25,364 nucleotides of DNA from a virus, in the IMG/VR virus record IMGVR_UViG_3300050821_006400, positions 1 to 25,364 of that record. One strand, 5' to 3'. Shown here in pieces: positions 2,826-25,246 of the stretch. The notes under the pieces were generated by a model that did not search any database, was not told where the DNA came from, and saw nothing but the letters and a program-made list of their open reading frames with translations. Each line of letters begins with the position of its first letter. Position 1 is the first letter of the stretch. A program made the translations under genes and the position numbers.

Positions 2826-2828
2826 CCA

Positions 2829-5948: not shown

Positions 5949-5958
5949 CTTTTAACCT

Positions 5959-8635: not shown

Positions 8636-9766
8636 TCACCCCTGAACGCGGCAAGCGAGTTCCGGCCGAGGAGTTGCCCATCCGCCGAGCACGTCGAGAC
8701 GAGTGTACTTCTGGTTAGAACGGATGTCATACCCGCGGATCAGGCGAACGCTCAGCCCGATACGAGGATTGCTGACTTCCTCCGACCATTCCATACCACC
8801 CGGCTTCTCGAGCCGTGCGATAACCAGCGTGAAGGCATTCTTGTCGAACGCCAACGATGCCGGGCTCGATACGCCGGAGATAAGTCCCAGCGCCGTCGAA
8901 CCAGTCACTCCGTACACATTGACCGCGTTCCCGCTGGTTGGCAGGCCCACGACCGTCTGGAACGGGCTGGTGATATCCGCGTTGATGTCCGGCGCAATCG
9001 GAACCGTTGCATTGCCCGAACCATCCGAAGACGTGTCCGAGGTCACAACGAACGTCCGAAGCGCACCGGTGTCGCGGTAGCTGATTGGGTTCACGCCGTT
9101 CATTCCGACCACAGAGATGATATCCCCGCGGTTCAGAACGGCCGCCGAGTGCGCCCAACCGTTGGTGATGAGCGAAGCGCCCGACTGATTTGCACCGCTA
9201 ACCAAAGGCGTGCTGCCCGTGGTCAGTCCGATGGTCTGCCGGCGAATGTTCTGGTCCATCGACCATTTCATCCCGACAGCAATTCCCATCGTGCCCTCTT
9301 CGTACTGCCGAGAAATTTCTTTCATCGGGTTGTACAGGTTGTTGTTAAACCCGAGGGTCGCAACTTCCATGTCAGGGCTTACAACCATTGCCCGCATCCG
9401 ATTCTGCATCGGCGCCGCATGGTTGGCTAGTACGACGCGAGTCTGCGCGTACGTGTTAAGTGAGGTTGGGGTGGTCCCAGGCACGCCGACGAAGTTATAA
9501 ACGTTCGTCGCCTGATCGCAACCCTCGCCGTCGATTGTGTTCGCAATCGTCTCTACGGCTGGTTCAATGTACCGCTCGCCAAAGCGGTCAATCGTCATCG
9601 TCAGGTCTTGATCGCTGATCTGCAGATCTTGACCCCAGAGACGGTTAACCGTGATGGGGAACGGAACTTCCCGGATGTCTTCCGGCTGCATTGCGTCTCC
9701 CTGACGGCCTCTGAGGCGTACAGGGATGCGCGCGTTGAATACGTCGCTTGTATTCCGCTCAGTGCG
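8636..9766 (-). CDS. Major coat protein, 3' exon (P22-like HK97 fold)
   Basis: This exon encodes about 376 residues. From NTSDVFNARIPVRLRGR it continues the P22-like coat N-terminus: strand NARIPVR, then QPEDIREVPFPITVN, a spine helix (TIDRFGERYIEPAVETIAN), a long central beta domain, and the closing EWSEEVSNPRIGLSVRLIR with YTRLDVLGGW. The first in-frame ATG (9691) falls inside the conserved region, so a simple call from it loses about 59 residues. The missing N-terminus lies at 10841-10942, across an intron. Joined, the coat would be about 410 residues, near the 430 of P22 gp5. The exact exon edge is inferred from protein length matching (REL|TRTERNTS) and from the need for a terminal intron G. 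It could be off by some bases. Confidence 0.8.
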   Translation of the reverse strand, partial: RTERNTSDVFNARIPVRLRGRQGDAMQPEDIREVPFPITVNRLWGQDLQISDQDLTMTIDRFGERYIEPAVETIANTIDGEGCDQATNVYNFVGVPGTTPTSLNTYAQTRVVLANHAAPMQNRMRAMVVSPDMEVATLGFNNNLYNPMKEISRQYEEGTMGIAVGMKWSMDQNIRRQTIGLTTGSTPLVSGANQSGASLITNGWAHSAAVLNRGDIISVVGMNGVNPISYRDTGALRTFVVTSDTSSDGSGNATVPIAPDINADITSPFQTVVGLPTSGNAVNVYGVTGSTALGLISGVSSPASLAFDKNAFTLVIARLEKPGGMEWSEEVSNPRIGLSVRLIRGYDIRSNQKYTRLDVLGGWATPRPELACRVQG

Positions 9767-9769
9767 CTA

Positions 9770-10408
9770 TTACTGAGCGCGTTCCGTAAGCGGCCATGCT
9801 GGGTTGTCCGCCCAGTCGCCGTATGGAACAGCCGTGAATTTCTTCACGGGCTCGACTATATCACAGCCCACTTGGGCTTCGGGCACTTCGCTCCGCTTGG
9901 AGCTACTGGCTTGCGCCATAGTCTGTGAACCTTCTTGATGATGCGGACAGATTCCGTCATTATGGGCCCTTCCGCAGTTGCAGTTGTAGCACATAACCCT
10001 GAATCCCGGCGGGAAGTTATTCTGAATCAGCCAGTTGTAAATTGCGTTCTGACCCAGTTCCTGCCGTTTGGCCTTGCTACCAATTTCCTCAATGTGATCA
10101 ATCGTAAAGAAGCCTTCGTTAGTCTCGCCACAGCAGACGCAAATACGTCCGTAGTGGTCGAATACAATCTTCCGTTGCTTCGCGTGTCGTTCCTTCATGT
10201 ACGCTAAGTGGCGATCCATCACCGTCGGATCCTTTGCGACCCGAATATTGAATCGTTCCACTACATACTTAGATGCACACTGCTTGCATCTGTTAGTGCG
10301 ACCACCCTTACCGTCCTTCGTGAAAAGTTCGATATCCTTCTCGGAGTCGCAAAACTTACAATACTTGAGGATTGGTTCTGACATCAAGCTTGGTTGCTGA
10401 TTATCCAT
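9770..10408 (-). CDS. Intron-encoded HNH homing endonuclease
   Basis: A 212-residue protein from ATG 10408 (a GTG at 10420 would add 4 residues). An N-terminal zinc ribbon has CKFC (17-20) and CKQC (41-44), a fold frequent before HNH domains. The HNH nuclease follows: ICVCCG (about 89-94), FTIDHI with DH at 104-105, then RVMCYNCNCGRAHNDGICPHH (ending near 157), which supplies Asn, Cys and His ligands. It should cut intronless coat alleles and so spread the intron; this follows from the family, not from this sequence. Its stop (TAA 9772-9770) lies just 3 nt before the proposed intron end. It has its own promoter at 10423-10452 and no Shine-Dalgarno. Confidence 0.85.
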   Translation of the reverse strand: MDNQQPSLMSEPILKYCKFCDSEKDIELFTKDGKGGRTNRCKQCASKYVVERFNIRVAKDPTVMDRHLAYMKERHAKQRKIVFDHYGRICVCCGETNEGFFTIDHIEEIGSKAKRQELGQNAIYNWLIQNNFPPGFRVMCYNCNCGRAHNDGICPHHQEGSQTMAQASSSKRSEVPEAQVGCDIVEPVKKFTAVPYGDWADNPAWPLTERAQ

Positions 10409-10422
10409 ATATCCGTACACTT

Positions 10423-10452
10423 TTTATAGCATGTCACGTTTGTTGTTGTCAA
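10423..10452 (-). promoter_or_regulatory. Intron-internal sigma70-like promoter for the HNH gene
   Basis: TTGACA (10452-10447, minus strand), an 18-nt spacer and TATAAA (10428-10423). Transcription would begin near 10416, only about 8 nt before ATG 10408. The endonuclease message would therefore be nearly leaderless and independent of coat-gene transcription. A perfect -35 and 5/6 -10 match in the intron, outside any exon, is unlikely to be selected for coding. Confidence 0.6.
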
Positions 10453-10639
10453 CTCCGTTTTAGCAGTACGGCTTTAGGACGTCCCAGCAGTTAACCCGAT
10501 TTTCGTACGGGGATCACTCCCCGCAGGGACGAATATTCATCCGATTTTGTTACCGGCTTGAGCGAATTCGCCATCGACAATTATGTTCAACGCGGTTCGT
10601 TGTCCCACGCCCGCCGCTTACCGGCTGCCTACAATTTCT

Positions 10640-10840
10640 TGCAGGTTCAGGTCATGTCTTCACCCTCGCGGGTGCGCTCCGTTTCGGGCTTCATTAGCCC
10701 TACCGACTTTCGTCGTGACCGTCACACCTTCCTGCGTTTGCAGGCTTGGCTCGGCATTACCTTGTGCCATTCCTGGCCGTCAGGCTTCCACCGAATTAGA
10801 AGCGTTTGCGTACGGCAATTTCTCGCCGTAGGAGCTAGAT
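10640..10840 (-). ncRNA. Group I ribozyme core
   Basis: Catalytic core of the coat-gene intron. A P2-like hairpin CGGC...GCCG is at 10813-10828. The region 10743-10768 carries GGCACAAGGUAAUGCCGAGCC, comparable to the P4-P6 side of cyanobacterial and Azoarcus introns (AACGCCGAGCCAAGC). P7 is at 10716-10720/10650-10654, and P8 with a GCGA tetraloop is at 10661-10674. P9 (CCUGC...GUAGG) lies just past P7 and runs on to about 10628. Boundaries are approximate because P1, P3 and P10 were not resolved by hand. Confidence 0.75.
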
Positions 10841-10942
10841 AGTTAACTCGCGACTCACTTGTTTAAAGAAGACCAAAGAATTCTCTAAACGCATGAGCGT
10901 ATTTTGCGCAATGACAACCGGATTCAGCAACTCATTTGCCAT
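10841..10942 (-). CDS. Major coat protein, 5' exon
   Basis: ATG at 10942 with AAAGGA 9 nt upstream. It encodes 34 residues beginning MANELLNPVVIAQNTLMRL, continuing ENSLVFFKQVSRELT, then meets an in-frame TAG two codons later. This is the N-arm typical of P22-like coat proteins (a short LL-P start, then a helix of the form LENxLVF.KxVxRE). The next expected element, a strand with VRxPVR, is found only 1.1 kb downstream at the start of the 3' exon, which is why an intron is invoked. The same N-arm recurs in the genes at 12547-13500 and 19360-19827. Confidence 0.8.
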
Positions 10943-11057: not shown

Positions 11058-12476
11058 TTATCGCCATTCTCCGGCTTCATCCCGTTTGCGGTAGTCGTCG
11101 GGGTGTAGCTTCCGAACTTCTTCTTGGCTCATCTGCTTGAGGGTTTTGTAGCCCACAGATGCCCGACTTCCTACCGGAGTAATGGGTTGAGGCTTCACCG
11201 GAGGCGGAGTTACAGGCCGTTGGCCCGCTGCTGGCGCTGGTGGAGCGGCTGGAGGTACTGCCGGTGCTGCGGCCGGCGGTTGAGGAGCCGCGGGTGGCGC
11301 GGTCTCTGCAGCGGGTACTTCTGGATCGGGATCCTCTACTGCCGGCGGATCGCCAGCGGCTGGAGGCGTTTCTGGGGGAGTCGGCGGAGCGACCGTGACT
11401 TTACCTAGCTGGATCCAGGCTTTCCGAACGGCCTTTTGGATTGCTTCCGGCGCGTTCACCTTGGTCCGATCCTTGTCGGTCGGAAGTTCGGTGGCTAACG
11501 CCAGCGCATGGGCTTCGTCGGGGTGCGTGGAGATCCAGTAGATCAGGTCTGCGGCTCTCTGCTTATCCTCGGAACCTATTTCGGTGATGACGGCATTCAT
11601 GGCGCCGCTGAATACGATCTTTTTGTGATCGACTGCAGCTTTTTCCCGGAAGTCCGGGTAGCGCTGCTCACCGTCTGTGAAAATCTGCTCTCGCTCTCGC
11701 TCTTCGGCGGTGCGGACTTGATCGCGCTGTTGCTTGGCGATCTGCTCCTGGCGGTCGGTGACTGCCCGGGCGTGGTCTTGTTCGAGGCGCTTCTTCTCGT
11801 CACGCCAGTCGGATACTTTGTCGACATGCTCGTCCTGGAGCCGGGTTAGCTCTGCCTGCCAGTCCTTGCGGGCCTTGGCTGTGGCGGCCGTCCACTTATC
11901 GAAGTCTCCGCCTATTTCCGGGTCGTTGATGTCGGGCTCAACCAGTTCCGGAAGCGCGAGCGTCGGCCGCGGCGGAATAGTTGGTGCGACTGGTTCCGGC
12001 GGAAGCGCGGCTTCTGGATCTGCGGGCTTAGTCTCTGCCGGAGGAGTTACTGGCGGTACTGCGCGCTCAGCCATCTGCCGGCGTAGCTCTGCGAGCTCTC
12101 CGTCCTTGCGGGCCTGTTCGATCTTTAGGGCCTCGGCTTCGGCCTTTGCTTCGTCGCGTTGGCGCTTGTACCGTTGGGCGCCGGATTCTTTCTTGACTAC
12201 CGGCGGAGTGGCCGGAGGAGGTGGCTCTTCCTCATCGTCATCGTCGACTACTTCTTCGACGGGAGGATCCGGTGGGACAGCGTCGGCCGGAGGATCGGCG
12301 GGAGGTACGTCTGCCGGCGGAGTTTCTTCTGTTGGCGACTCAACCCGGACCTCATCGTTCATTTCGGTTACTTCGACGGTTTCAAACCCCTGACTCTCGA
12401 GATGGTTTTTGATATACTCTGCTGTCTGAGTTTTGGAAGTGATCACGAGCTCGGGGAGCTCACCAACATACGGCAT
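11058..12476 (-). CDS. Scaffolding protein candidate
   Basis: A 472-residue, highly charged protein just upstream of the coat gene, the usual place of a scaffold. Residues 1-50 form a small alpha/beta start (ELVITSKTQTAEYIKNHLE). Next is an acidic Pro-rich stretch with DDDDEEEPPPP. Then comes a long helical, Lys/Glu/Arg-rich region (SGAQRYKRQRDEAKAEAEAL, later EHVDKVSDWRDEKKRLEQ), very likely coiled coil. A Pro/Ala-rich linker and a basic C-terminus (TLKQMSQEEVRKLHPDDYR) follow. A C-terminal basic helix that binds coat is a known feature of P22 scaffold. Assignment is by architecture and synteny, not sequence family. The start has AAGGTG 9 nt upstream. Confidence 0.65.
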   Translation of the reverse strand: MPYVGELPELVITSKTQTAEYIKNHLESQGFETVEVTEMNDEVRVESPTEETPPADVPPADPPADAVPPDPPVEEVVDDDDEEEPPPPATPPVVKKESGAQRYKRQRDEAKAEAEALKIEQARKDGELAELRRQMAERAVPPVTPPAETKPADPEAALPPEPVAPTIPPRPTLALPELVEPDINDPEIGGDFDKWTAATAKARKDWQAELTRLQDEHVDKVSDWRDEKKRLEQDHARAVTDRQEQIAKQQRDQVRTAEEREREQIFTDGEQRYPDFREKAAVDHKKIVFSGAMNAVITEIGSEDKQRAADLIYWISTHPDEAHALALATELPTDKDRTKVNAPEAIQKAVRKAWIQLGKVTVAPPTPPETPPAAGDPPAVEDPDPEVPAAETAPPAAPQPPAAAPAVPPAAPPAPAAGQRPVTPPPVKPQPITPVGSRASVGYKTLKQMSQEEVRKLHPDDYRKRDEAGEWR

Positions 12477-12546: not shown

Positions 12547-13500
12547 TTACGCGCGGATCAGACTAAGGCAGATAGGCCGAAAGGGTGCACTGGCACGCTC
12601 GCCATCAAGCCCGGTGGCCCAATGGCACTCTGCGATGTCACGGGTGTAGTCAAGCTTGTCCACGCGCATCAATGGCCCGCCGCTTTTAAGCCGGACGAAA
12701 GAGCCTTCTTTAATCCGCGGCTCACCGTTGTCAAAGAATCCGCAAAGGACGTCGAAGCGGGTCAGATACTCCAGGCTCCTTAAATCGAGCCCTCGAATCA
12801 ATCGGACGGACGGTCCTTCTGTGGTTGAAACCTCTTCTGCCCACTCAGTGCCTACTGGATTGTGTAGGCGCCCGAAAACGACCGTGCGCCCCTCCGCTTT
12901 AGCCGCTATGTCCCGGGCAATTCCGACCATTGACGGCCCGATGAATCTGCGTGAGAAGGTGTCGATGTCGAGCGTGCAGTCCATTTGATCGATGAGGAGA
13001 TCCATTCCGACAAGGTAGTCCAGCGGCACTGGAACAACATTGTCAAACACTGGAACAACGTTGTCAAACATGTCTTCATAACGATAGTTTGGATCCCAAC
13101 GTGGCGTAAACTTTGCTGGTTTGCGGACATTCCATGTGTACCCTGGGGTGCTCGGGTAGTCGTGCATCGCAAGCGTTTTAACGCCGCGGTCACGAAGCTC
13201 TCGTTGAAGGATGAACAGCGCCCGCGCCGCGATTACCTTAGGGCTAAGCAGATTGTTGCTGTACTCGGAATTCGGTTGGTCGTACCGCTTTGACCAATCC
13301 GGCCGTTGCTGGATCGCGTATTCTCCAAGGCGCGGCGTGAGCGGCTCGACGGGTGGCAACTGTTCAACCGACGGCACTGGCGGCTTAACCAGCGTGATAG
13401 GCTCAAGCGCCGTGACTTCCTTCGCCAAAACCGTGACAGCCCCCGCTGCCGTGGCGCCGATACCCAGGAGTTTTAGAAAACCGCGTCTGTTCTGATTCAT
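12547..13500 (-). CDS. Tat-type leader, mini-coat and YodC-like domain fusion
   Basis: A 317-residue protein between portal and scaffold. Residues 1-27 are a Tat-type leader: NRRGFLKLLG, an Ala/Gly/Val-rich core, then AKEV. A Pro-rich linker runs to about 80. Residues 82-131 match the coat N-arm and first strand (NNLLSPKVIAARAL, then WNVRKPAKF). Residues 170-203 match the coat spine helix (TLDIDTFSRRFIGPSM). Residues 206-256 match the coat C-terminus (EWAEEVS, SVRLIRGLDLRS, TRFDVLCGF). The long central coat domain is absent. Residues about 265-317 (GSFVRLKSGGPLMRVDKL...CHWATG) fit the DUF2158/YodC pattern. A 7-residue tandem repeat (FDNVVPV, twice) lies at 145-158. AAGGGGATCAG precedes ATG. 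Function unknown; a minor head protein or a decoy coat are both guesses. Confidence 0.65.
   Translation of the reverse strand: MNQNRRGFLKLLGIGATAAGAVTVLAKEVTALEPITLVKPPVPSVEQLPPVEPLTPRLGEYAIQQRPDWSKRYDQPNSEYSNNLLSPKVIAARALFILQRELRDRGVKTLAMHDYPSTPGYTWNVRKPAKFTPRWDPNYRYEDMFDNVVPVFDNVVPVPLDYLVGMDLLIDQMDCTLDIDTFSRRFIGPSMVGIARDIAAKAEGRTVVFGRLHNPVGTEWAEEVSTTEGPSVRLIRGLDLRSLEYLTRFDVLCGFFDNGEPRIKEGSFVRLKSGGPLMRVDKLDYTRDIAECHWATGLDGERASAPFRPICLSLIRA
13028..13069. repeat. 21-bp tandem duplication
   Basis: Two adjacent 21-nt units differing at one base (ACTGGAACAACATTGTCAAAC-type, 13028-13048 and 13049-13069). They keep frame and duplicate FDNVVPV in the mini-coat fusion gene. One mismatch implies a recent duplication. 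Confidence 0.8.
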
Positions 13501-13509
13501 CTGATCCCC

Positions 13510-13665
13510 TTACTCACGAAATAACGGCTTCTCTTGCGCACACCACGCGACAAGATTTTTCATCAACTGGTCTGTGAAATCCGCTAGCCACGTAATGCGC
13601 CCCATCTTGGCTTCGCTGTTCAAGCGGCGGAGGTATTCCAACTCGACTCGCATGTCCTGCGTCAC
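13510..13665 (-). CDS. Small protein coupled to portal (51 aa)
   Basis: GTG at 13665 overlaps the portal stop (GTGA). The product begins MTQDMRVELEYLRRLN and continues SEAKMGRITWLADFTDQLM, then NLVAWCAQEKPLFRE. It is helical with regular heptad-like hydrophobics. It fills the gap between portal and the mini-coat fusion exactly, with 9 nt to the next ATG. Not recognised; a small head-assembly or connector accessory protein would suit the place. Confidence 0.55.
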   Translation of the reverse strand: MTQDMRVELEYLRRLNSEAKMGRITWLADFTDQLMKNLVAWCAQEKPLFRE

Positions 13666-15911
13666 TGTCCGGGATTCCCTTGTGGCGGTCCCGCGGGTCC
13701 AGCCGGACTAGGCGCACCCGCTGGCGATGCCGGGCTCGCTGGAGGCGGCGTAATCCCAGCCTGTTGATACTCGAGGTCTAGCCGCATCGCCTCTTGGTCG
13801 AGAGCCGTTCCAGCATGCAGGGCATTGAGCTGTTGCTTGATTCCCTCTAGTTCGATGTCCACCAGTCTCTGGGACTCGGCCATCTTGGCGTTGATTTCCG
13901 CCACAATGATCTGAGTCTGTGACTGCATGGCCGTCCGGCGCTCATCCGATTCGAGCTTCATGACCTGCTTCTCTTGAAGGGCAGTCAGCCGGTGAACTTC
14001 GCCCGTGAGTAGCTCGATTAACTTGCCCTGCTGCTGGATGGCCTGCATGGCCTGCGGTGGCAGCGGCGCTTGGTCGTCCTGGTCCTTTGCGATATCCGGC
14101 GGCCGTAGCCGATCCGCGATCTTGTCGGCCATCGGGATGTCCATCATCCGGACTCCCAGGTCGAGCGCGCGCATCATGGGTTCCGGTACTGCCTGGACAA
14201 GCTGCAGGAAGGCGTCGACTCCCTGCTGTCGCTTCGTCGCGTAACTTGGTCCCGATCCGATGACCACGTCGTAGCGCATCGCCGAATTGACAAGATTGTA
14301 AAGCTTCTCGGCGCCCTGGTAGATGTGGACCTGATTGATTGGAACGATTCGCGATGCTCCATCCGGATCGTAGATCGAGATTGTTCGCTCTTCGCTGTAG
14401 ATGTGCGGGATTAGGTCTACGATCACCCGGCCGGTGTGCCGGATCGCTCTCGCTAAGTTGTCGTGATAGTTGAAGTGCGCATTGTCGCCCTCACGCTGCC
14501 GGGCCATGATCGCCCGCCCGCTGGCTTCCGGGCTTGGGGCTCCCAGGCTTGGAGCATACGTTGAAAGCTGAGACTCGCAGTCCTGAGCGGCCTGTTGAAC
14601 GCAGACCGTCATCGCCTGGATCTCAGGAGAGACCACCTGCCGCATGGGCGGCGCCGGGAAGGTATTTCCTTCCGCGTCCTTCAGTTTGTGGATGAGGTAC
14701 GGAGTCGCCTTGCGATTGGCGTTCGTGTAAACTTCTTCGTAGCCGTCGATCTGGCCTTCGTAAACCTGCCAGGGAGCTAGAGGTGCAAGGGCCACAGCCT
14801 CAACCTGCTTCGACCGCATGTAGTCGTAGCTTAGGTTTGCGTCCATCGCCGGCCGGATCATGCCGCGATAGGCGCGTTTCTTGTCTTCCCGGATCTCTCT
14901 TCCCAGGCACGGGATGAGCGGAATCCACCGGCCCGGATGGTCTCGGCGCTCCAGGATCTCGTTACCACTGAGCAGCGCGTACTTGACCTTCCGCTTTTCA
15001 GTCTTGCGGGTGTTGACCGGGATAACACCGGCTGGAACCTGATCCCACTTGACGATCCGTCTGTCCGGAAGCTGGCAGATGTAATCCTCTTCGACCTCGA
15101 TCCACCAGTACTCCGCTACGCGTATGCAGCCCTTTGGGAACCAGTCGTTCTTGATGTCGTCGCCGACACCGCTAAAGTCACCAGACGCGGCTTTTGAGTG
15201 CGGATGCTGTTCCTTGAATATCGTCTCGTCCAGGTCTTCGGTGACGAAGCAATACCGCATGTCCGAGTAATCGAACTTCTCGGTCGCTGGATCCGGATAG
15301 ACCGAAAACAAGTTCGAAATGCGATTGACTAGGATTTTTTGCCAGAAGGCGTTCTGCGGGACCTCGTCCGAATCCGGATCTGGGTCGTTCTCGAACTGAT
15401 AGTCCACCCTCCACCAGCCGCGGCCTACCTTGACCGCGTGCTCATAGCCGGTCATAAAGGCTACATCTGAGCAGCTATCGTTGTCGATATTGCGGATCAG
15501 CCCCTGAATGATCTGGGCTGTGTCTTTGTCTCCACCGCTTCCGACCGGTGAGATTCTTGGCTCTGGCGGATTCTGGCGGGCGTCGTTCACGACCTGATCA
15601 ATAGAGGGACCGATCTTGTCAAAGGTGAGCGAAGGGCGCCCGCGGCGCTCGTCTAGCTGCGCGGCCGTCCAATGAATTAGCGAATCGGTAAAGTCAAGTT
15701 CTTGCTCAGCCCGACGTCTCCAGTTCGATTCAATGCTGCAGACAAGCTGAAAACGCGTATGCGCTAGAACAAGTAGTTCCGCGTCTTCATCCGGCGCTGC
15801 TCCGCGCTTTTCTCCGGCGGTGACACTAACCCCTAGATTGCCCGCCAGGGGCGGTTCCACACTAAATGCTGCTGTCGGCGGCCCGCTTAGGCCGTTGAGG
15901 GAGGATGCCAA
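13662..15911 (-). CDS. P22-like portal protein
   Basis: A 749-residue protein, close to P22 gp1 (725). Residues about 45-80 begin the portal fold (FQLVCSIESNWRRRAEQELDF). RGRPSLTFDKIGPSIDQVVN follows, a characteristic P22-type segment, then WRVDYQFENDPDPDSDEV and ISNLFSVYPDPA. In the middle come ADGAS-like turns, LSTYAPSLGAPSPEASGRAI and DLIPHIYSEERTISI. The C-terminal 150 residues hold a Gln-rich helix (QAMQAIQQQGKLIELLTGEV), and a Pro/Gly/Ala tail ends the chain. It forms the dodecameric vertex for DNA packaging and, in P22-like phages, a C-terminal barrel. The start is TTG 15911; no Shine-Dalgarno is visible, so the first residues are uncertain. It lies 4 nt after the previous stop. Confidence 0.85.
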   Translation of the reverse strand: MASSLNGLSGPPTAAFSVEPPLAGNLGVSVTAGEKRGAAPDEDAELLVLAHTRFQLVCSIESNWRRRAEQELDFTDSLIHWTAAQLDERRGRPSLTFDKIGPSIDQVVNDARQNPPEPRISPVGSGGDKDTAQIIQGLIRNIDNDSCSDVAFMTGYEHAVKVGRGWWRVDYQFENDPDPDSDEVPQNAFWQKILVNRISNLFSVYPDPATEKFDYSDMRYCFVTEDLDETIFKEQHPHSKAASGDFSGVGDDIKNDWFPKGCIRVAEYWWIEVEEDYICQLPDRRIVKWDQVPAGVIPVNTRKTEKRKVKYALLSGNEILERRDHPGRWIPLIPCLGREIREDKKRAYRGMIRPAMDANLSYDYMRSKQVEAVALAPLAPWQVYEGQIDGYEEVYTNANRKATPYLIHKLKDAEGNTFPAPPMRQVVSPEIQAMTVCVQQAAQDCESQLSTYAPSLGAPSPEASGRAIMARQREGDNAHFNYHDNLARAIRHTGRVIVDLIPHIYSEERTISIYDPDGASRIVPINQVHIYQGAEKLYNLVNSAMRYDVVIGSGPSYATKRQQGVDAFLQLVQAVPEPMMRALDLGVRMMDIPMADKIADRLRPPDIAKDQDDQAPLPPQAMQAIQQQGKLIELLTGEVHRLTALQEKQVMKLESDERRTAMQSQTQIIVAEINAKMAESQRLVDIELEGIKQQLNALHAGTALDQEAMRLDLEYQQAGITPPPASPASPAGAPSPAGPAGPPQGNPGQ

Positions 15912-15915
15912 ATGA

Positions 15916-16254
15916 TTAGGCTGCTTTTCGTTTGGCCGCGAATGCTTCGGCCTCTTCGAGTGTCTCGAACTTCCCGAGTATCGTTTCGATCACCCACTGT
16001 TTGACGATCACGTGCCCGTCCCGGCGCACCACGTACTCCTCATGCGGCGGCAGATGGCCGCGCTTGGCTAGTACCCGTGCGTGCAGCCGACGATCAGCGT
16101 ACACGTATTGGCCGAGCATCAGGTCCCACTCGATGCGGCGGAGGACATCAGGCAGAGCATACAAGCCGGTCTCTACGTCGGCGAGGTCTTCGTGGTTTAT
16201 AGACTTTGGGCTATTGTGGACCGGTTGATTGATAGACTGTGGGCTATCGCTCAT
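15916..16254 (-). CDS. Small phage protein of unknown function (112 aa)
   Basis: ATG 16254 overlaps the previous stop as ATGA. Residues 3-27 contain an internal repeat (SPQSIN / SPKSIN) made by a short direct DNA repeat. The body is helix-strand: YALPDVLRRIEWDLMLGQYV, LHARVLAKRGHLPPHEEYVV, then KQWVIETILGKFETLEEAEAF and a basic AAKRKAA tail. The last segment looks like the usual end of a short phage protein that modifies or fine-tunes another. No family recognised. A longer frame to 16356 is rejected because it overlaps the upstream gene. Confidence 0.6.
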   Translation of the reverse strand: MSDSPQSINQPVHNSPKSINHEDLADVETGLYALPDVLRRIEWDLMLGQYVYADRRLHARVLAKRGHLPPHEEYVVRRDGHVIVKQWVIETILGKFETLEEAEAFAAKRKAA

Positions 16255-16598
16255 CGGAGTGTCACCTGTTCTTTTGGATCCCAGGGGGCCTGTTCTCGAA
16301 ATGCCCTGTCGAACGAATCCTTTATCTCCGGGGTCGCCTCTTGCTCGAAGACCCAACCCGGAAGCTTGGCGGACTCATGATTGTTATAAACCACGCAATT
16401 GCATAGCGGACAGGTCCATTTGTCGTTTAGCGTGTAGACCTCTTCGGCGCATTCGATCACGGAGTTTTCGCCCGGTGCCTTGGTCCAGTCAATCGCCTTT
16501 TTATGAATCACCCGGTAGTGGCGTGGTGGGGGATCGCTGACGTGGGCCTTGAACATCTCAAGACCGCAGCCGCGATAGAAGATTGCTGGGTGGCTCAT
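16251..16598 (-). CDS. Possible zinc-ribbon phage protein (115 aa)
   Basis: ATG 16598 overlaps the upstream TGA (ATGA). The protein has FYRGCGLEMFKAH near the start and, in the middle, KWTCPLCNCVVYNNHES. The CPLC pair plus nearby Cys and His could bind zinc, perhaps with Cys of RGCG. The C-terminal third is acidic and helical (TPEIKDSFDRAFREQ). Function unknown. It is joined at both ends by 4-nt overlaps, so it is translated as part of the accessory run between terminase and portal. Confidence 0.6.
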   Translation of the reverse strand: MSHPAIFYRGCGLEMFKAHVSDPPPRHYRVIHKKAIDWTKAPGENSVIECAEEVYTLNDKWTCPLCNCVVYNNHESAKLPGWVFEQEATPEIKDSFDRAFREQAPWDPKEQVTLR

Positions 16599-16891
16599 GA
16601 CACCCTCGCGATGGCGCTCTCTTCCGACCAACCCATCCGCTTTAGCAGCTTGATGATGTCCTTCTCGGGGATCGGGATAGGCTGAGCGAGATTTTTAACG
16701 TAGACGTAGTAACGCCTGTCTAGCGCTGATCGCTGAACCCCGAGAATCTCGTCGTACTTGAAGCTGTTGATGTCCCCTGCATGATCCAGCCAGCCGAAGT
16801 ACCCCGTCTTTTGCGGCGGGCTCAGTACGGCTTTCGGAATCTGCTCCATCCCCGGTGGAAGAATCACTGCCGGCCTGTCGTCTGTGATCAC
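16595..16891 (-). CDS. Small phage protein of unknown function (98 aa)
   Basis: GTG 16891 overlaps the previous TGA (GTGA). It begins MITDDRPAVILPPGMEQIP and has TGYFGWLDHAGDINSFKY, YYVYVKNLAQPIPIPEK and a C-terminal helix, DIIKLLKRMGWSEESAIA. Alternating strands and a final helix suggest a compact fold. It is not matched to a family. The extended frame to 16981 would overlap the upstream gene by 93 nt and is unlikely. Confidence 0.6.
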   Translation of the reverse strand: MITDDRPAVILPPGMEQIPKAVLSPPQKTGYFGWLDHAGDINSFKYDEILGVQRSALDRRYYVYVKNLAQPIPIPEKDIIKLLKRMGWSEESAIARVS

Positions 16892-17376
16892 GCTACACCA
16901 ACCGTTTCTAATACGACATCGGGCTCTGGTTGAGCGTGGCCGAACAGTACGGATATTTCCGTACCATCTTTCCACTCGCACGCTCTAATGAAGAAGTGAT
17001 TGTGCTGTACACACTTTCCCCAAATCAGCGGGTCTTCTTCGATGCCGCCGCGCGTGGATGGAATATCCAGCCACGTGGTAATAATCGGGCCGTCGTTCTC
17101 CGCTAGCAGAATCGTTGAAATCTTGTCGCCGAGTGGTTTGGCGTGAATTTCGTATAGCCGTTCAAACTCACCTTTTGAGTCGATCTTTGAGAAGTCGCCG
17201 TTCATCGTAAGCGAGAATAGCCGGTTAACCCTTACCGATTGTCCCATGAACGAAACGAGCCACCCGCGCTTGTCTTCCGGGCTGACCCTACTTTCGCAGT
17301 ACGCCCTTCTTCGGCAGTCGAGTGCAGTGGTAATCTGCCCTAACAGCCTCCACACCATTTCTGTTCTAAAATCCAT
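16888..17376 (-). CDS. Uncharacterised phage protein (162 aa)
   Basis: ATG 17376, with AGGGTAG about 10 nt upstream and 12 nt after the preceding stop. It starts with a helix (MVWRLLGQITTALDCRRRAY). Then come strand-rich segments (GWLVSFMGQSVRVNRLFSL, ISTILLAENDGPIITTWLD), and CVQHNHFFIRACEWKDG near the end. It is predicted globular, alpha plus beta. No signal peptide or membrane segment, no recognised motif. Confidence 0.6.
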   Translation of the reverse strand: MDFRTEMVWRLLGQITTALDCRRRAYCESRVSPEDKRGWLVSFMGQSVRVNRLFSLTMNGDFSKIDSKGEFERLYEIHAKPLGDKISTILLAENDGPIITTWLDIPSTRGGIEEDPLIWGKCVQHNHFFIRACEWKDGTEISVLFGHAQPEPDVVLETVGVA

Positions 17377-17388
17377 TTCAAATCTACC

Positions 17389-17553
17389 CTAGTTGTTGCT
17401 GAACCATCGATAGTTAACGAGGTAATCGCCGATGCCGAAGGTAACGACGAAGTACCGTTTTGCCGTGCAGTGCAGAACGTGCCCCTGCGGGCGCATCATC
17501 CCCAAGGTTTCTGCGCATAGGCAGCCCCCGATCTTCACAACACGGTACCGCAC
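17389..17553 (-). CDS. Small protein, 54 aa, GTG start
   Basis: GTG 17553 shares one base with the upstream TAG (TAGTG). The product begins MRYRVVKIGGCLCAETLGMM and continues RPQGHVLHCTAKRYFVVTFG, IGDYLVNYRWFSNN. It is strand-rich, with Cys pairs CLC and HC that could bind metal. It fills the interval 17377-17553, which otherwise looked empty. No family recognised. Confidence 0.5.
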   Translation of the reverse strand: MRYRVVKIGGCLCAETLGMMRPQGHVLHCTAKRYFVVTFGIGDYLVNYRWFSNN

Positions 17554-17822
17554 TACTGCGAGGTCTTCTGAAGGTCTTTGATCAGATCCTTGATCGATGA
17601 CTTCGCAACCGGCCTGTCAACCTTCTGTACGTGCTGCGTCCATGCGACGATCTGCCCCGCCCCAATGGCGTTTAACACAGCCGCCTTCTTCTCTGCATCA
17701 TCCCGGTTCTGCCTGTCTAGTCTGTGCATTTCGCCGGTCATTGGATCGACGATAACGACCTGAAAGCGGCGCAGGCAGCCGGTCGAGCAGAGCAATATAA
17801 TGGCGAGCGCTAGGCGTTTCAA
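17553..17822 (-). CDS. Putative small lipoprotein (TTG start)
   Basis: TTG 17822 overlaps the TGA of the preceding gene (TTGA), with GGAG 6 nt upstream. Read from here, the 89-residue protein begins MKRLALAIILLCSTGCLRRF. That is a basic start, a hydrophobic core and a Cys after LLCSTG, a non-ideal lipobox (position -3 is Ser). VVIVDPMTGEMHRLDRQNR and a Lys/Asp/Glu-rich helix follow, ending IKDLIKDLQKTSQ. Size and layout resemble outer-membrane spanin lipoproteins, but the evidence is thin and the gene lies far from any lysis candidate. A longer frame from 17921 would hide the leader and is rejected. Confidence 0.5.
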   Translation of the reverse strand: MKRLALAIILLCSTGCLRRFQVVIVDPMTGEMHRLDRQNRDDAEKKAAVLNAIGAGQIVAWTQHVQKVDRPVAKSSIKDLIKDLQKTSQ

Positions 17823-18274
17823 CTTACGCTCCAAATCCCACCCGTGCAGTTCCACTTCGTAGCACCACCGCCGGCGTTCAGCACGATATACGGCATCACT
17901 GGAAACTGGCTGGCTGTGCACGATCCTCCAACCACCGCTCCGCTTGGCGGAAGAAAGTAGAAGTACGAGGGCGGCCCGGTGTACACCGTGGCACCGATTG
18001 AGTGGTTCTGAGTGGCCGTTCCCTGGCAGCCGCGGCTTGCAAACACGTAGCCAGCCACTGGAATGACGAGCGTGGGACAGATAGCCTCACCATCAACTAC
18101 CAGTATGGTGGTGCCCATCCAATACGAGTGGATGTTGGCGGTGCTGGCAACGCTAACTGGGCCTGACCCTTTAGCCGTCAACGCACCCGTTAAGGTAGTG
18201 GTCGGAAAAGCCACCTGAGCTATACAGATCGCGCTAAAAATCGCAAAAAGTGCGAACTTTGTGATGATTTTCAT
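17819..18274 (-). CDS. Secreted virion-like protein, short paralogue of 7513-8607
   Basis: A 151-residue protein with a Sec signal peptide (MKIITKFALFAIFSAICIAQ). The mature part aligns with the 364-residue protein at 7513-8607: FPTTTLTGALTAKGSG, then VVDGEAI, ASRGCQGTATQNHSIGATVY (RGxQGT....H..G.TVY) and a Cys/Trp-rich end, KWNCTGGIWSVS. It lacks the long C-terminal half of that protein. ATG 18274 overlaps the previous TGA as ATGA. A virion decoration or appendage role is inferred from the motif. Confidence 0.65.
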   Translation of the reverse strand: MKIITKFALFAIFSAICIAQVAFPTTTLTGALTAKGSGPVSVASTANIHSYWMGTTILVVDGEAICPTLVIPVAGYVFASRGCQGTATQNHSIGATVYTGPPSYFYFLPPSGAVVGGSCTASQFPVMPYIVLNAGGGATKWNCTGGIWSVS

Positions 18275-18546
18275 TGAATTTTGGCGGTAACGCCGTCGAT
18301 CTCATTCAAGCGGCCGATTAACGCGTCGGCCTCCGCTGAATTCAAGCAATCGACGGCATATTCTTCTGGCGCCCACGATGGCTGCCCACCGACGAGTCGC
18401 GTACGACCGCGCGGCAGATCCATCGCGTTGAAATCTATGGACGGACGGCGATGGATTATAACGGTGACCATTTTGCGTGCGACTATTGTCATGGGCGGCA
18501 GCGCGTCCCATGCCGCATCTAACCCAAGGAGTTCTTTTGCTGTCAA
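18271..18546 (-). CDS. Uncharacterised phage protein (91 aa, TTG start)
   Basis: TTG 18546 overlaps the preceding TGA (TTGA). Ninety-one residues: MTAKELLGLDAAWDALPP, a strand-rich part (IVARKMVTVIIHRRPSID), GRTRLVGGQPSWAPEEY, and a helical C-terminus (NSAEADALIGRLNEIDGV). It has the look of a small alpha/beta fold. Unknown function. Confidence 0.55.
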   Translation of the reverse strand: MTAKELLGLDAAWDALPPMTIVARKMVTVIIHRRPSIDFNAMDLPRGRTRLVGGQPSWAPEEYAVDCLNSAEADALIGRLNEIDGVTAKIQ

Positions 18547-18938
18547 GCGGCCGGTTCCTTCACAATCTCAAGCGCCGATCCTTCGAGCGCTTTCTGCACG
18601 GGCGGAGCCATCGATGTGCTCACCGCAACGAAGGACGGATGCTCCGCCAGCTTCTCTACGAATTCCGCATGCTCCCGCTTCGAAACATCGAACGTCACCG
18701 TAGCCGTCAGCGCCGGTGAGGACTTGAACGGCATGAACGTATTTGTCTCGATCTTCAGATGAAACGAGTAGCCCTTATCCGGAACGACGACCACCTGCGA
18801 TGCTGACCGTGGAACCGCCCTGACGATGTCGCGGCCCAGGAATTCGTATTCACCCGAGCGTGCCATGCGAACGCCGGCGATGCGAACGCCCTCGGGAAGG
18901 TGCGGGATTAGCGCGGCGTATTGTGCGTGGATGTCCAC
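18543..18938 (-). CDS. Uncharacterised phage protein (131 aa)
   Basis: GTG 18938 directly follows the TAA of the upstream gene. The protein starts with an amphipathic helix (DIHAQYAALIPHLPEGVR). Strands follow (GEYEFLGRDIVRAVPRSA, VVVVPDKGYSFHLKIETNT, ALTATVTFDVSK), then a helix and a final short strand. This is consistent with an all-beta plus one-helix domain. No recognised family and no export signal. Confidence 0.6.
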   Translation of the reverse strand: MDIHAQYAALIPHLPEGVRIAGVRMARSGEYEFLGRDIVRAVPRSASQVVVVPDKGYSFHLKIETNTFMPFKSSPALTATVTFDVSKREHAEFVEKLAEHPSFVAVSTSMAPPVQKALEGSALEIVKEPAA

Positions 18939-19142
18939 TTAGCGCGCCCCCGGGCTTGGTTTGTAGGTTTTTAGCAACGCCTCACACTCTTCTACGGGAT
19001 GCGATAGGCCAGCGGAGATCCCAGCCAGGATCGCAGCGTTACGTTCATTGATGCATAGCCCCTGCAGGCTTCTCGCGAATACACGCTTCTTCCATGGCTC
19101 GCCGCGCATGCGGGCGTAAGTGTCGTTGCGTGTCTTGTTCAC
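18939..19142 (-). CDS. Small basic protein (67 aa)
   Basis: GTG 19142 overlaps the preceding TGA (GTGA), and GGAG sits within the last codons of that gene. It reads MNKTRNDTYARMRGEPW, KKRVFARSLQGLCINERNAA, ILAGISAGLSHPVEECEALL. It is basic at the N-terminus and helical afterwards, possibly a small nucleic-acid-binding protein; that is only suggested by charge. Confidence 0.55.
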   Translation of the reverse strand: MNKTRNDTYARMRGEPWKKRVFARSLQGLCINERNAAILAGISAGLSHPVEECEALLKTYKPSPGAR

Positions 19143-19360
19143 TTACCGCTCCAGTGCGCGGGTAACGTTGGCGGCTTGACCTGCTTCGGCTGCGCTGGAA
19201 TGCCCTTAGGCGTCGGAAAGTACAGCCCCTCGCGCGCCGGAGTCTCAGTCGTTGGCAGGAGGTTGTAGTTCTCTCGATACAGCGTGGCCGGGTGGCGCTG
19301 GACTGCCAAATTGAATTTGCGTTGCCCGGGCGGCTTGGGCAGAGCGGGGATTTTGGCCAT
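19139..19360 (-). CDS. Proline-rich small protein ending HWSGK
   Basis: Seventy-three residues, 15-20% Pro and Lys-rich: MAKIPALPKPPGQRKFNL, then TPAREGLYFPTPKGIPAQPK, PPTLPAHWSGK. Extended and probably unstructured. It joins the previous gene by TAATG. The C-terminal HWSGK parallels HWSGR of two other small proteins. The codons contain TGGAGCGG, the ribosome binding site for the next gene. Confidence 0.6.
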   Translation of the reverse strand: MAKIPALPKPPGQRKFNLAVQRHPATLYRENYNLLPTTETPAREGLYFPTPKGIPAQPKQVKPPTLPAHWSGK

Positions 19361-19827
19361 TATGCGGCCTCCGCAAGTGAGTATTCTAGAAGATCCAATA
19401 GACCATTATCGCGGATGCTTGACCGGTTAGCCTCAAAGGCCACATTGACCACCAGTCTAACTTTATACATCCCTGGGTCGTCCACGCACGCAGCCATCTC
19501 AAGTAGAATGGCGAGCCCGCGCCTTGGATTACAGTGAGTCTCGCACCAGTGCAATCCCCTGCGAAGCTTGGGCGTTGAAAATATGACGGTCTGTCCGGCG
19601 TCCCTTAGGCTGTCCAGTTCTTCAACGAGACCATCTATCAAGGGCTGCGTGACTAAGTCCCCGAATTGGTCAATTCCCCTAGCTAGGTACTCTGTCGGCA
19701 CATCTACTTCCCTAGTGATAGAGATTGCGTGGTTACCAATTCTGGCCGGCACACCCTGCAGGGAGTCCTCTAGGCGCATAAGAGCATTAAGAGAAACCAC
19801 CACCGGATTTAGTAATTGCCGTGGCAT
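19360..19827 (-). CDS. Miniature coat-protein paralogue
   Basis: A 155-residue protein from ATG 19827 (TAATG junction). Residues 5-23 (LLNPVVVSLNALMRLEDSL) are nearly the coat N-arm (LLNPVVIAQNTLMRLENSL). Residues 51-78 (IDQFGDLVTQPLIDGLVEEL) align with the coat spine helix (IDRFGERYIEPAVETIAN). Residues 80-133 (TVIFSTPKLRRGLHW, then YKVRLVVNVAFEAN) align with the coat C-terminus. About 250 central coat residues are missing. This is the barest version of the three coat relatives, without leader or extra domain. It is full-length, coupled at both ends and without internal stops, so it is likely expressed. Role unknown. Confidence 0.6.
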   Translation of the reverse strand: MPRQLLNPVVVSLNALMRLEDSLQGVPARIGNHAISITREVDVPTEYLARGIDQFGDLVTQPLIDGLVEELDSLRDAGQTVIFSTPKLRRGLHWCETHCNPRRGLAILLEMAACVDDPGMYKVRLVVNVAFEANRSSIRDNGLLDLLEYSLAEAA

Positions 19828-20811: not shown

Positions 20812-20985
20812 TTAGGATTTCTTTGAGATCGTGGTCGTGATGGTCAGCCCGTCGAGCGCTTCCTTCAGCGCGACCCCTATGGCCGGCGCTACTTTGTCGG
20901 CGAGGCCTTCGATTGCCTCGGCTACCGCGGCGTCGATTAGGGGCTTTAGGGCGGCGGCGTCTTGGGCGGGGTTTAGAATACTCAT
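20812..20985 (-). CDS. Small helical protein following terminase (57 aa)
   Basis: ATG 20985 overlaps the terminase stop as ATGA. The 57-residue product starts MSILNPAQDAAALKPLIDA and is almost wholly an amphipathic helix of Ala/Leu/Glu/Lys, ending TTTISKKS. An in-frame ATG 66 nt upstream lies within the terminase and is less likely. Function unknown. Confidence 0.55.
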   Translation of the reverse strand: MSILNPAQDAAALKPLIDAAVAEAIEGLADKVAPAIGVALKEALDGLTITTTISKKS

Positions 20986-23540
20986 GACATCCAACTTCTT
21001 TCTCCGGATGGGGGTTGACTTGGGTAGCGCGTGAGTGGCCGCGGAGGACATAGCATTCTCTGTAAACCACTGGAAATTAAGTACCTTAAGCAATCTACAA
21101 GATGGTCATTTGTCTTAGCGATTTTGCCCGTGTTGTTGCCATCTCGACTCTCTACCCGATGATAGTTCCGGAACTCCCTAAAGAAGTTCTCGCAGCAAGG
21201 TAGAATCTTAAGTTGGCCGTCGACTAGCATATTCCAAACTTTCTTAATGCCGGTCTCAACATCATTGTCGGCCATGCTTAGTTTTAGTCCGAGCTTACGA
21301 TAGAGATCGATTAATTTTCTCCCGTCGATCTGTGATCCGCCTTGGCATGCCGGGTCAATTACCCCAGGAATCCATTCGCCACGCTCTTTAATAGCGTGTG
21401 CGTGCGTTGGCGGCTCGCCCATCGCTCCGTAATGCTCGCTGTAGACGTATACTCTGCCGGTAGCCGGGTCTTTGGCTGCCCATAGGGCTGCGGTGCGAGA
21501 GAAACCTACGTCAAGGGCGTATACGCGCGGCCATGACATAGGAATAACGACTAAGTTAGCGGTGATCTCAGCTTCGGATATTGGATATACCGCGCCAGAG
21601 CCTAACGCAGGCTCGCCCTCAGTACGTGCCTTGATTTGATATGGCGGCGTTGTGGCCAGGAGGGCCGCCTTCTCCTCTTCGGGAATATGCGGGACATGCT
21701 TCCAGCCGGCCTGCACGTAAAACTTATACTTGGCTGCTTCTACTGGATTCTCCGGCTCGAAGAATCCCATGACTACCGCGCTCATCCCCTTGAGGGGCGT
21801 AAAGGTTGTGTAAATAATCCCACGCGTGGTTGCGGTTCGGAACAGTATTTCGGTATAAACGTCGGCGGGTGGCTCTTCGTCGCAGTTCGATACGAGCGAT
21901 GTGCCACATAAAAAACGGTGCTCGCCTTCGACTGTTATGTCGAATACGCGCTTATGTCCGATATCCTCCGTTGACCTTATTAGCGATGTCTTGACTCTTT
22001 GACGGACATTGCGTAGTTCGTACTTCGGATCGCAATTCCCGTGAATCACCATATGGCGAGCCCGGAGCTTTTTCGATTCAGTGCGGCGAGTCGCCTCAGC
22101 CCACACGGACGCTACAGCCTCGGCCTTGCCAACTATTCCGATGGTGTCAATAAACGCAACAACCTCCGAGGAACGCGAGATACCGACCCAATACTGCTCG
22201 CGCCACGTTTTCGTTACTGACTTTCTGACGGATATGTTGGATCTGATCCCCATTCTGTTTAGCAAAATAGAGAGTTGGGATGCAAGCCTCCGAGACGTGG
22301 TAGCATACCACACGCCATGGTGATGGGCCCATCCATCACCCATATAAAGCCATCTCAGGAAAAGGGCAACTTTGTCTTTGGATGACTTAAAAATCCAGTT
22401 CGGAATCTCTTTTGTGGCCGACAGTTGATTCTTGGGCCACTCGCCCCAAAACTCGTCCCAGTATAGGTGCCAGTCTGGGACGTGATGCTGGTGTTCGGCA
22501 AAGTTTTTGCGTCTAACGCGCGCCTCTGGCGGGAGGATCCGCACGGCCTCCTCCATTACTTCAATCGCGCCGTTGGTTACCTTCTTACCGGCAACGTGGC
22601 CCTCCGCTATCACCAAGGCAGCCCAGATGTACCACGCGTCGGAGCGATCTTTGGTTTTATCGGGCCACCAACCGGGAATGATTTGGGCGATTCTGTCGGC
22701 TTCCAGCGCCGGGACTTTATCCTTTAAACCATAGCCTCGATAAACGTTATGATCATGCGTGCAGAGTATTGGCGTACCGAACTTTGGAGAAATCTGCATG
22801 CATAATTTATCACCCTGGTCTACCGTGGCAAGAACCCGACGCCCAACTGGATTTCCAGTCTTGTCGAGCGATAGAACCGAGTCTCCGACCTTGACCTTCT
22901 CAATCGGCTTCAATGAGCCGTCGGCCATTTGAATAAGTTCGCCCTCGGCAATGCACCACGCTACGTCCTTGGCAGTACCCTCAAACGACTCGCGGCCCTG
23001 CTCGTAGGACTTGAGCCCAACGACACTCACCCCGCCAGTAACGTGCTTGACGTAAATCGTCTCGATGGATCCAGCGATACCGCCGCGGCGCGGGATCACC
23101 TTTTCAATAAGATCTGCCGGGATCATACCGGTACCGTGACGATCAAGCGGCCCGAGTAGTTTGTGCTGAACGATGTCCCGCGTGGTTTCTGAATTAGTTC
23201 CGCACGCCCAAGCCTCTATCGGCTTGTCGAATCGCCTACCCTCCCACCAGTGAGGGTAATTTCCAGTTAAATGACAAACGAGCTCGAAGCAGCCCGCCTC
23301 GCTTTTTCCAAGGCGATTTCCGGCCGCGAATAGACGTTCTTTGAACAACTTACCGGCCTTAAAGAACTCCATCTGCTTCGGATAGAGTTCGCGCCGATAA
23401 GGCCCCTCATCCGGAAACATAGTCGAGATCTTATTCCGCGCGATCTTCTCACGCTTGCGAATCTCGAGTTGTTCGGCTGCGGCTTGGGCTTTGGCCAGAA
23501 CTACAGCGGGATCTTCGGGAAGGTTCCCAGGGCGAGGCAT
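20982..23540 (-). CDS. terL: Terminase large subunit with in-frame intein
   Basis: An 852-residue precursor. The extein ATPase has Walker A GNRLGKS (74-80). The Walker B Asp is expected right at the splice junction, VAW|CDEEPP. The C-terminal nuclease shows YALDVGFSRT (Asp677), GVIDPAC (Asp729) and TNDHLVDCLRY (Asp812, Asp816), the metal-binding acids of the RNase H-like fold. Removing intein residues 196-552 leaves 495 residues, the usual size for P22-like TerL. TerL translocates DNA into the prohead through the portal and cuts concatemers. No TerS is recognised nearby. ATG 23540 has no obvious Shine-Dalgarno; 74 nt upstream hold no gene I can support. Confidence 0.85.
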   Translation of the reverse strand: MPRPGNLPEDPAVVLAKAQAAAEQLEIRKREKIARNKISTMFPDEGPYRRELYPKQMEFFKAGKLFKERLFAAGNRLGKSEAGCFELVCHLTGNYPHWWEGRRFDKPIEAWACGTNSETTRDIVQHKLLGPLDRHGTGMIPADLIEKVIPRRGGIAGSIETIYVKHVTGGVSVVGLKSYEQGRESFEGTAKDVAWCIAEGELIQMADGSLKPIEKVKVGDSVLSLDKTGNPVGRRVLATVDQGDKLCMQISPKFGTPILCTHDHNVYRGYGLKDKVPALEADRIAQIIPGWWPDKTKDRSDAWYIWAALVIAEGHVAGKKVTNGAIEVMEEAVRILPPEARVRRKNFAEHQHHVPDWHLYWDEFWGEWPKNQLSATKEIPNWIFKSSKDKVALFLRWLYMGDGWAHHHGVWYATTSRRLASQLSILLNRMGIRSNISVRKSVTKTWREQYWVGISRSSEVVAFIDTIGIVGKAEAVASVWAEATRRTESKKLRARHMVIHGNCDPKYELRNVRQRVKTSLIRSTEDIGHKRVFDITVEGEHRFLCGTSLVSNCDEEPPADVYTEILFRTATTRGIIYTTFTPLKGMSAVVMGFFEPENPVEAAKYKFYVQAGWKHVPHIPEEEKAALLATTPPYQIKARTEGEPALGSGAVYPISEAEITANLVVIPMSWPRVYALDVGFSRTAALWAAKDPATGRVYVYSEHYGAMGEPPTHAHAIKERGEWIPGVIDPACQGGSQIDGRKLIDLYRKLGLKLSMADNDVETGIKKVWNMLVDGQLKILPCCENFFREFRNYHRVESRDGNNTGKIAKTNDHLVDCLRYLISSGLQRMLCPPRPLTRYPSQPPSGERSWMS
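21885..22955 (-). mobile_element. LAGLIDADG intein in TerL
   Basis: Residues 196-552 of the TerL precursor (357 residues). Splicing block A: CIAEGELIQMADGS, with Cys1. Block B: TPILCTHDHNVY (T-x-x-H). Homing motifs: WAALVIAEGHVAG and LRWLYMGDGWAHH, both keeping an acidic residue, so the LAGLIDADG nuclease may be active. Block F: VFDITVEGEHRFL. Block G: GTSLVSN followed by Cys+1, with Ser in place of the usual penultimate His. Insertion is immediately before the DEE of Walker B, a site where sequence is most conserved. Splicing would restore VAWCDEEPP. Confidence 0.85.
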
Positions 23541-23947: not shown

Positions 23948-24526
23948 TCAATACGAGACGCGCGGAATCGGCCTTCCAAGGTACGGCGCGATCTGCGTTG
24001 CCAGACGTAACGGCGTGGCCGCAATGCCACCAGCACGTAGTTTAGCGATCTGGGCGCGGCAGAATGTCTCCTCGGCGGGAGAACACGAGCGGGCGATCTT
24101 CAGCCCGCCGCAGAGCACCATCGCTTCATAGATGAGATCCTCGTCCGTCGAGCTCGGTAGATCCAGATGAGTATACGCAGGACCCTGCATGCCGTATGAC
24201 GGCGCTATAGCCGACGCCAGCGCCCAGTGTAGCCCCATCGCCCTAAGGCTAGGATCTTCAGCGCGGATCCGTTCCAGCATGCGCAGGCCGAACGATATAT
24301 CTTCCGCAGTCGGGCAATCGCTAGCAGCCAAGACACCAATGGAAATCATTGCATCGGTGACGATGTGACGGTTGAACTCCGCCAAAGCCGTATCGTATGC
24401 CTGCTGGTAGTCGAAACCGCCAGTCGGCCCTACCGGCAACGCACCCTTCGAGGTTGGAAGCACCGTCGCAACGCCAGCGGCCGGTGCCGCAATCCCCAAA
24501 AGACTTAGAAATCCCCTGCGCTTCAC
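23948..24526 (-). CDS. Tat-leader protein of unknown function (192 aa)
   Basis: ATG 24526 overlaps the previous stop as ATGA. The leader MKRRGFLSLLG, then AAPAAGVATVLP, has a twin-Arg motif, a hydrophobic core and Ala/Gly-rich turns. It is almost identical in pattern to the leader of the mini-coat fusion (NRRGFLKLLG, ATAAGAVTVLA). The body is helical (QQAYDTALAEFNRHIVTDA, ISFGLRMLERIRAED, WALASAIAPS). Later come IYEAMVLCGGLKIARSCS and ETFCRAQIAKLRAGG, possibly disulphide-bonded. I see no coat similarity here, so a shared leader has been joined to an unrelated body. Export by the host Tat system is predicted only. Confidence 0.55.
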   Translation of the reverse strand: MKRRGFLSLLGIAAPAAGVATVLPTSKGALPVGPTGGFDYQQAYDTALAEFNRHIVTDAMISIGVLAASDCPTAEDISFGLRMLERIRAEDPSLRAMGLHWALASAIAPSYGMQGPAYTHLDLPSSTDEDLIYEAMVLCGGLKIARSCSPAEETFCRAQIAKLRAGGIAATPLRLATQIAPYLGRPIPRVSY

Positions 24527-25167: not shown

Positions 25168-25168
25168 G

Positions 25169-25241: not shown

Positions 25242-25246
25242 AAGGT

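Follow-up and report, generated by a model that had tools for sequence, protein, structure and literature searches.

Judged from its sequence, the short protein W1 of a P22-type podovirus is a member of a class, spread across P22-type phages, in which Tat-type leaders are joined to segments of the coat protein. The phage is IMG/VR record IMGVR_UViG_3300050821_006400, complete at 25,364 b, and this whole stretch is referred to as the window. Its genes include those for a P22-type portal, an intein-bearing terminase, a coat, and GroES. On the minus strand, the gene order is terminase, small genes including that of a second coat-like protein (W2), portal, W1, scaffold-position gene, and coat. The terminase large subunit (20982-23540) carries an in-frame intein with Hint-type and LAGLIDADG matches, GroES (2829-3497) matches Cpn10 in two stretches (Pfam 9.5e-27), and tRNA-Leu, tRNA-Leu, and tRNA-Tyr are clustered at the right end (25093-25339). 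In the related locus L028, a GroES-like ORF recognized by eye lies near the mini-coat at 13672-14079. The main features of the window are the following.

8636..9691, minus strand: coat exon 2, main part (Pfam P22_CoatProtein 1.3e-21; phrog_283 6.2e-53)
about 10942-10844, minus strand: coat exon 1, the N-arm, 33 aa, MANELLNPVVIAQNTLMRLENSLVFFKQVSREL (from the sequence; N-arm HMM iE 5.2e-10)
11058..12476, minus strand: scaffold-position protein in the interval between W1 and the coat (from gene order; in relatives its family cluster lies beside the coat)
12547..13500, minus strand: W1, 317 aa, a Tat-type leader followed by a coat without A- and I-domains and a DUF2158-like tail
13662..15911, minus strand: P22-type portal, upstream of W1 (Pfam 6.8e-144)
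19360..19827, minus strand: W2, 155 aa, leaderless, with N-arm, spine, and C-terminal strands (pairwise E 5e-8; an ORF in locus L024; low-confidence model)
23948..24526, minus strand: W24, the second Tat-leader protein of the window, with a GTG start and a possible gp4-type connector-like stretch in mid-protein

The scaffold-position protein gave no significant family match in Pfam and PHROG searches. The coat, which the original prediction described as a full gene, is actually split into two exons, separated by a group-I-intron-like RNA and an HNH ORF. Exon 2 ends at 8636, and its open frame runs upstream to about 9766, an approximate boundary. The interruption lies within 9770-10942 and contains a match to RF00028 (E 2.9e-7, under the curated cut-off) with the HNH ORF beside it. 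A separate N-arm exon is also seen in the related coats L004, L026, L027, L028, and L029.

The sequence of W1 strongly supports its being a paralogue of the coat. The protein can be divided into five parts.

13405..13500, minus strand: residues 1-32, Tat-type leader MNQNRRGFLKLLGIGATAAGAVTVLAKEVTAL (NCBIfam TIGR01409, 19.3 bits; cut-off 16.7)
13186..13251, minus strand: residues 84-105, coat N-arm helix (coat HMM alignment; AlphaFold2 helix 87-104, pLDDT >90)
12898..13035, minus strand: residues 156-201, first half of the P-domain and spine helix (spine-segment HMM iE 2.3e-8; AlphaFold2 helix 179-201)
12727..12888, minus strand: residues 205-258, second half of the P-domain and C-terminal strands (57% identity to the phage's own coat, E 1e-12)
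12610..12723, minus strand: residues 260-297, DUF2158-like tail (phrog_3261 6.4e-7; Pfam DUF2158 0.012, 15.8 bits and thus under the cut-off of 22.3)

In blastp against the spliced coat of the window, the 57% identity of the C-terminal strands extends over 51 aa, and the spine helix is 40% identical over 42 aa (E 1e-6). With an HMM of related-phage coats, W1 scores E 2.2e-21 over two separate blocks (model positions 19-142 and 363-413), and a set of virion-family HMMs returns the coat match at 2.8e-20. The curated coat models PF11651 (Pfam) and phrog_283 match neither W1 nor W2, and a single-protein scan of viral contigs with W1 found no homologue. W1 retains the N-arm, the E-loop, and both halves of the P-domain, and model positions of about 121-343 have no counterpart in it, which leaves the HK97-type fold, including its A-domain, incomplete. 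In P22 gp5, the P-domain comprises residues 79-127 and 358-416, the A-domain 128-221 and 346-357, and the I-domain 222-345, and the gap of W1 corresponds to residues 128-357, namely the A- and I-domains of this map (PMC9965877). Since the gap between the HMM blocks coincides with the gp5 domain map, W1 can be described as a coat cut at the borders of its P-domain. About 220 residues of the coat are missing from it.

AlphaFold2 predicts the N-arm helix and residues 160-255 of W1 mostly with pLDDT >90. VIA-align ranks P22 procapsid gp5 first against this model (Z 12.4, 177 residues), followed by 34 entries that are all HK97-type shells or encapsulins as well. Foldseek is weak when taken alone (best match 5.6e-4; P22-type coats 0.03-0.05), and the VIA realignment is stronger. 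Since coats were present in the AlphaFold2 input alignment, homology already enters the fold match, which supports the alignment without being a separate proof. The best BFVD match to the model, A0A6J5NY35, is an uncharacterised phage protein of 116 aa (TM 0.74 by target) and is possibly another stand-alone P-domain. The codon usage of W1 resembles that of the sure genes of the window (0.173 bits per codon). The paralogy of W1 with the coat that had been proposed is borne out by the profile match together with the predicted gp5 fold, and two further parts of the protein, the Tat-type leader and the DUF2158-like tail, had gone unmentioned. Both short proteins had also been called coupled to their neighbours, which applies to W2, whose gene overlaps its neighbours, but not to W1, which lies 161 nt from the portal gene and 70 nt from the scaffold-position gene.

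W2 is moderately supported as a coat relative. It aligns pairwise with the phage's own coat at E 5e-8, with MPRQLLNPVVVSLNALMRLEDSL matching MANELLNPVVIAQNTLMRLENSL in the N-arm and GLHWCETHCNPRRGL matching GMEWSEEVSNPRIGL near the C-terminus, and an ORF of comparable build in L024 aligns with it at 30% identity. This ORF is the sole match besides coats in a W2 profile search of the relatives. W2 is less certain than W1 because the coat HMM alone does not detect it. The model of W2 is of low confidence (pLDDT 55); its top matches are capsid-like, an encapsulin at Z 7.6 followed by a mycobacteriophage capsid at Z 6.1. The coding signal of W2 is weak (0.006 bits per codon). The proposed paralogy of W2 can thus be kept at moderate strength on the pairwise match and the L024 homologue.

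The N-terminus of W1 is MNQNRRGFLKLLGIGATAAGAVTVLA and exceeds the curated cut-off of the NCBIfam Tat signal model; it is a predicted signal for Tat export or membrane targeting. Relatives were collected as about 150 loci from coat-guided scans, all of them metagenomic fragments and most read within 10 kb of the coat, and all of their ORFs were scanned for Tat-type leaders. With TIGR01409 (cut-off 16.7), L010 scores 17.7, L077 21.3, and L153 19.9 bits, and some members of the class fall below the cut-off. The L010 protein (5589-6269) has the leader type and the A-less coat architecture of W1, and the same combination is found at 22-33% identity in L028 (14623-15321) and L077 (4226-4738). Other Tat-leader ORFs carry pieces of the coat: the C-terminal hairpin in L066, L162, and L077b, and the N-arm and E-loop in L170 (2337-2759). 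Weak matches occur to the coat in L170 (1957-2301) and to the coat spine in L027. The Tat-leader ORF of L032 contains a segment of the portal instead (Pfam P22_portal 6.1e-10, above cut-off). For W24, the match to a gp4-like connector (iE 0.075 at Z 19,740; blastp 0.003) is suggestive only. An ORF without a Tat leader in L094 (1137-1871, minus strand) holds a coat N-arm segment of 22 residues that shares 86% identity with a related phage's coat; the same ORF also has, by eye, a stretch resembling the C-terminal domain of RNA polymerase alpha.

Tat-leader genes are often paired and situated ahead of the terminase or portal, as in L170 (1957-2759), L162 (3-1485), L207 (2630-3615), and L066 (2586-4194). 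The L066 ORF at 2586-3275 was considered, from its sequence alone, as a terminase fragment and dropped for want of profile backing. A second type of leader protein, with a different common C-terminal part (LSDQEYxxLVxxGxxxL), is encoded in L207 (3184-3615), L231 (5084-5563), and L153 (868-1590).

The association between leader and coat was assessed with nine virion-family HMMs and shuffled decoys, and the decoys gave no match below 0.01. Excluding intron exons and contig-edge pieces, short internal partial coat matches were found in W1, L066, L162, L170, and L010, all with a leader, and in the leaderless L094 ORF; the portal match of the same screen is L032, also with a leader. Coat fragments are thus present in 5 of the 16 Tat ORFs, against a single one among about 14,000 other ORFs (Fisher p 5e-15; 4e-11 when just one ORF in six is taken as a gene). 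A coat-blind set was obtained by searching viral contigs with DNA for the leader ends DPERLLWVPG and DPERLLWRPG, which gave 34 distinct leader proteins. Twelve of these 34 exceed all 200 shuffles on the coat HMM, while each of the eight other virion HMMs picks out 0 or 1 protein at p 0.01; the shuffles behind these tests destroy local order. Clear N-arm pieces in this set are those of L207 (8e-10) and L234 (N-arm and E-loop 2e-7, with a weaker C-terminal match), clear I-domain pieces are those of L210 (7.5e-8) and L220 (5.6e-7), and L214 has the C-hairpin (5e-4). Weaker coat segments include those of L244, L235, L236, L239, L223, L218, and L221. PHROGs independently gives weak matches to phrog_283, the major head protein, for L210, L234, and L207. 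About half of the leader proteins have no recognisable coat segment.

The choice of segments is uneven. The pieces span the N-arm, E-loop, P-domain and spine, I-domain, and C-hairpin, and almost never the A-domain (13 strong segments give p 7.5e-5, or 0.0014 once shared architectures are collapsed). The A-domain profile is no less informative than other parts of the coat, and the one exception, L227, is a weak match of 1.2 bits. The L210/L220 gene pair is under purifying selection: 40 of 399 sites differ, 32 of them third positions, with dN 0.028, dS 0.40, and dN/dS about 0.07. When the own coat is ranked among 127 coats as a match to each fragment, it comes 1 for the C-part of W1, 1 for L170b, 2 for W2, 3 for L210, 65 for L010, and 100 for L024. 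The best-matching coats lean towards the own lineage, not strictly. An origin of the fragments from rival phages was also considered, and this ranking, mostly own lineage but for L010 and L024, does not decide it.

One reading, which we put forward tentatively and with less than even confidence, is that these proteins are membrane-targeted interface mimics that bind coat or scaffold and thereby alter or block assembly, most likely against related phages. The retained pieces (N-arm, E-loop, P-domain, and I-domain) would be those through which the coat contacts its neighbours and the scaffold, and the A-domain, which builds the centre of the capsomer, is omitted. In P22, the scaffold binds the N-arm of the coat, and residues D14, E15, and E18 of gp5 contact gp8 (PMC9965877). 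Fragments bound to coat or scaffold could cap, slow, or misdirect shell assembly, and the leader would take the protein together with its bound partner to the inner membrane. The likeliest target would be related phages in the same cell, the alternative being that the fragments tune assembly of their own phage. They might meet the shells before export or at the membrane face, or shells may not be the target at all. Coat homology, the P-domain fold, leader scores, the leader-coat association, dN/dS, A-domain avoidance, and the lean towards the own lineage are in favour of interface mimicry. Its weakest point is the leader itself, which would move the protein out of the compartment of capsid assembly unless it acts before or during targeting. 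Moreover, a phage that blocks its own coat type must somehow spare itself. Coat binding cannot be the whole story either, because about half of the leader proteins lack a coat segment and L032 carries a portal piece. The stronger version, in which P22-type phages keep fast-changing membrane-targeted coat pieces as weapons, a viral form of pathogen-derived resistance that poisons the shell assembly of competitors, is doubtful.

Minor capsomer, assembly regulator, and anti-phage roles had all been suggested for the short coats, and each is possible. A role in the phage's own virion or its assembly, as a minor protein whose P-domain-only subunits sit at a vertex or portal ring or seed the procapsid, would fit the place of W1 between the portal and scaffold-position genes and near the coat, its intact predicted P-domain fold, and a C-part closest to the own coat among 114 coats. 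However, lone hairpins and N-arms (L066, L207, L214) cannot form shell subunits, a Tat-type leader is odd for such a subunit, the gene position differs among relatives, and close coat relatives have no recognisable copy in the regions examined. For the whole family, the assorted coat fragments of the Tat-leader class make the plain minor-capsomer reading less probable, and we consider a role of this kind unlikely. The varied fragments can also be seen as products of gene birth, in which a mobile module with a Tat-type leader is joined by recombination to virion genes close by, the coat being raw material for unrelated functions on the envelope side. The short length and rapid turnover of the proteins, the tandem copies in L066, L077, L162, L170, and L207, and the coatless half of the class agree with this. 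Such an origin is nevertheless somewhat unlikely to explain the class, as the coat is strongly favoured over eight other virion families, the A-domain is avoided, one pair is under purifying selection, and W1, L010, L028, L077, and L234 have a common A-less architecture at low identity.

The fragments may instead serve as anti-defence decoys that occupy bacterial sensors, with the leader clearing the complex from the cytoplasm. Their derivation from both coat and portal is compatible with this, and capsid proteins are known to trigger bacterial immunity, through CapRel (PMC9712102) and a TIR system (PMC11312562). Binding of a trigger normally activates such sensors, though, and a decoy function seems quite unlikely. 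Many of the lone fragments are short, and several are also weak when taken alone (L027, L170a, L223), as chance similarity or decaying coat copies would be. This explanation is highly improbable for the class in view of the E-values, the empty decoys, the shuffles, the intact frames, and the dN/dS of 0.07 in one pair, and it is refuted for W1.

Several known systems resemble these proteins in part. Members of the P22 gp5 family (PF11651, phrog_283) resemble W1 in sequence and predicted fold over the N-arm, E-loop, and P-domain, whereas W1 lacks the A- and I-domains, has an added Tat-type leader, and gives no curated coat match. In animals, capsid-derived restriction factors such as Fv1 are fragments of a viral shell protein turned against viruses; Fv1 is host-encoded and unrelated, and serves as an analogy only for interference with assembly. 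The closest working analogue of W1-type proteins is Ccm of SaPIbov5, a capsid homologue of a mobile element that enters the helper shell and alters its size or assembly at the phage's cost (PMC8569155). Ccm has the full capsid fold and forms pentamers, whereas W1 has no A-domain; Ccm is encoded by a satellite, whereas this phage carries coat, portal, and terminase genes of its own; and no Tat leader is noted for Ccm (PMC8569155). Tab, a prophage protein, keeps invading phages from assembling virions, the kind of effect proposed here, but it targets the tail through the tape measure protein and is not described as capsid-derived (PMC10884400). In cultured phages, the search for homologues of the short coats returned only full coats, and Tat-led coat fragments have no described counterpart in cultured phages or open-access papers. 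The original prediction knew of no described counterpart, and this holds after the search; leader-tagged coat fragments are apparently an undescribed class.

Capsid proteins are regarded as structural and as encoded by one gene per phage. Here, whole P-domains and single interface elements of the coat recur in small genes of their own, many of which start with an export-type leader, and purifying selection acts on at least one of these genes. If assembly is what the products act on, they would amount to natural, evolvable capsid inhibitors of tailed phages and to a so far undescribed kind of conflict between phages. An action on host sensors would be a sign of capsid-sensing immunity in poorly known hosts, and if pieces of the coat are merely re-used, this would be an unusual recycling of capsid segments into new genes.
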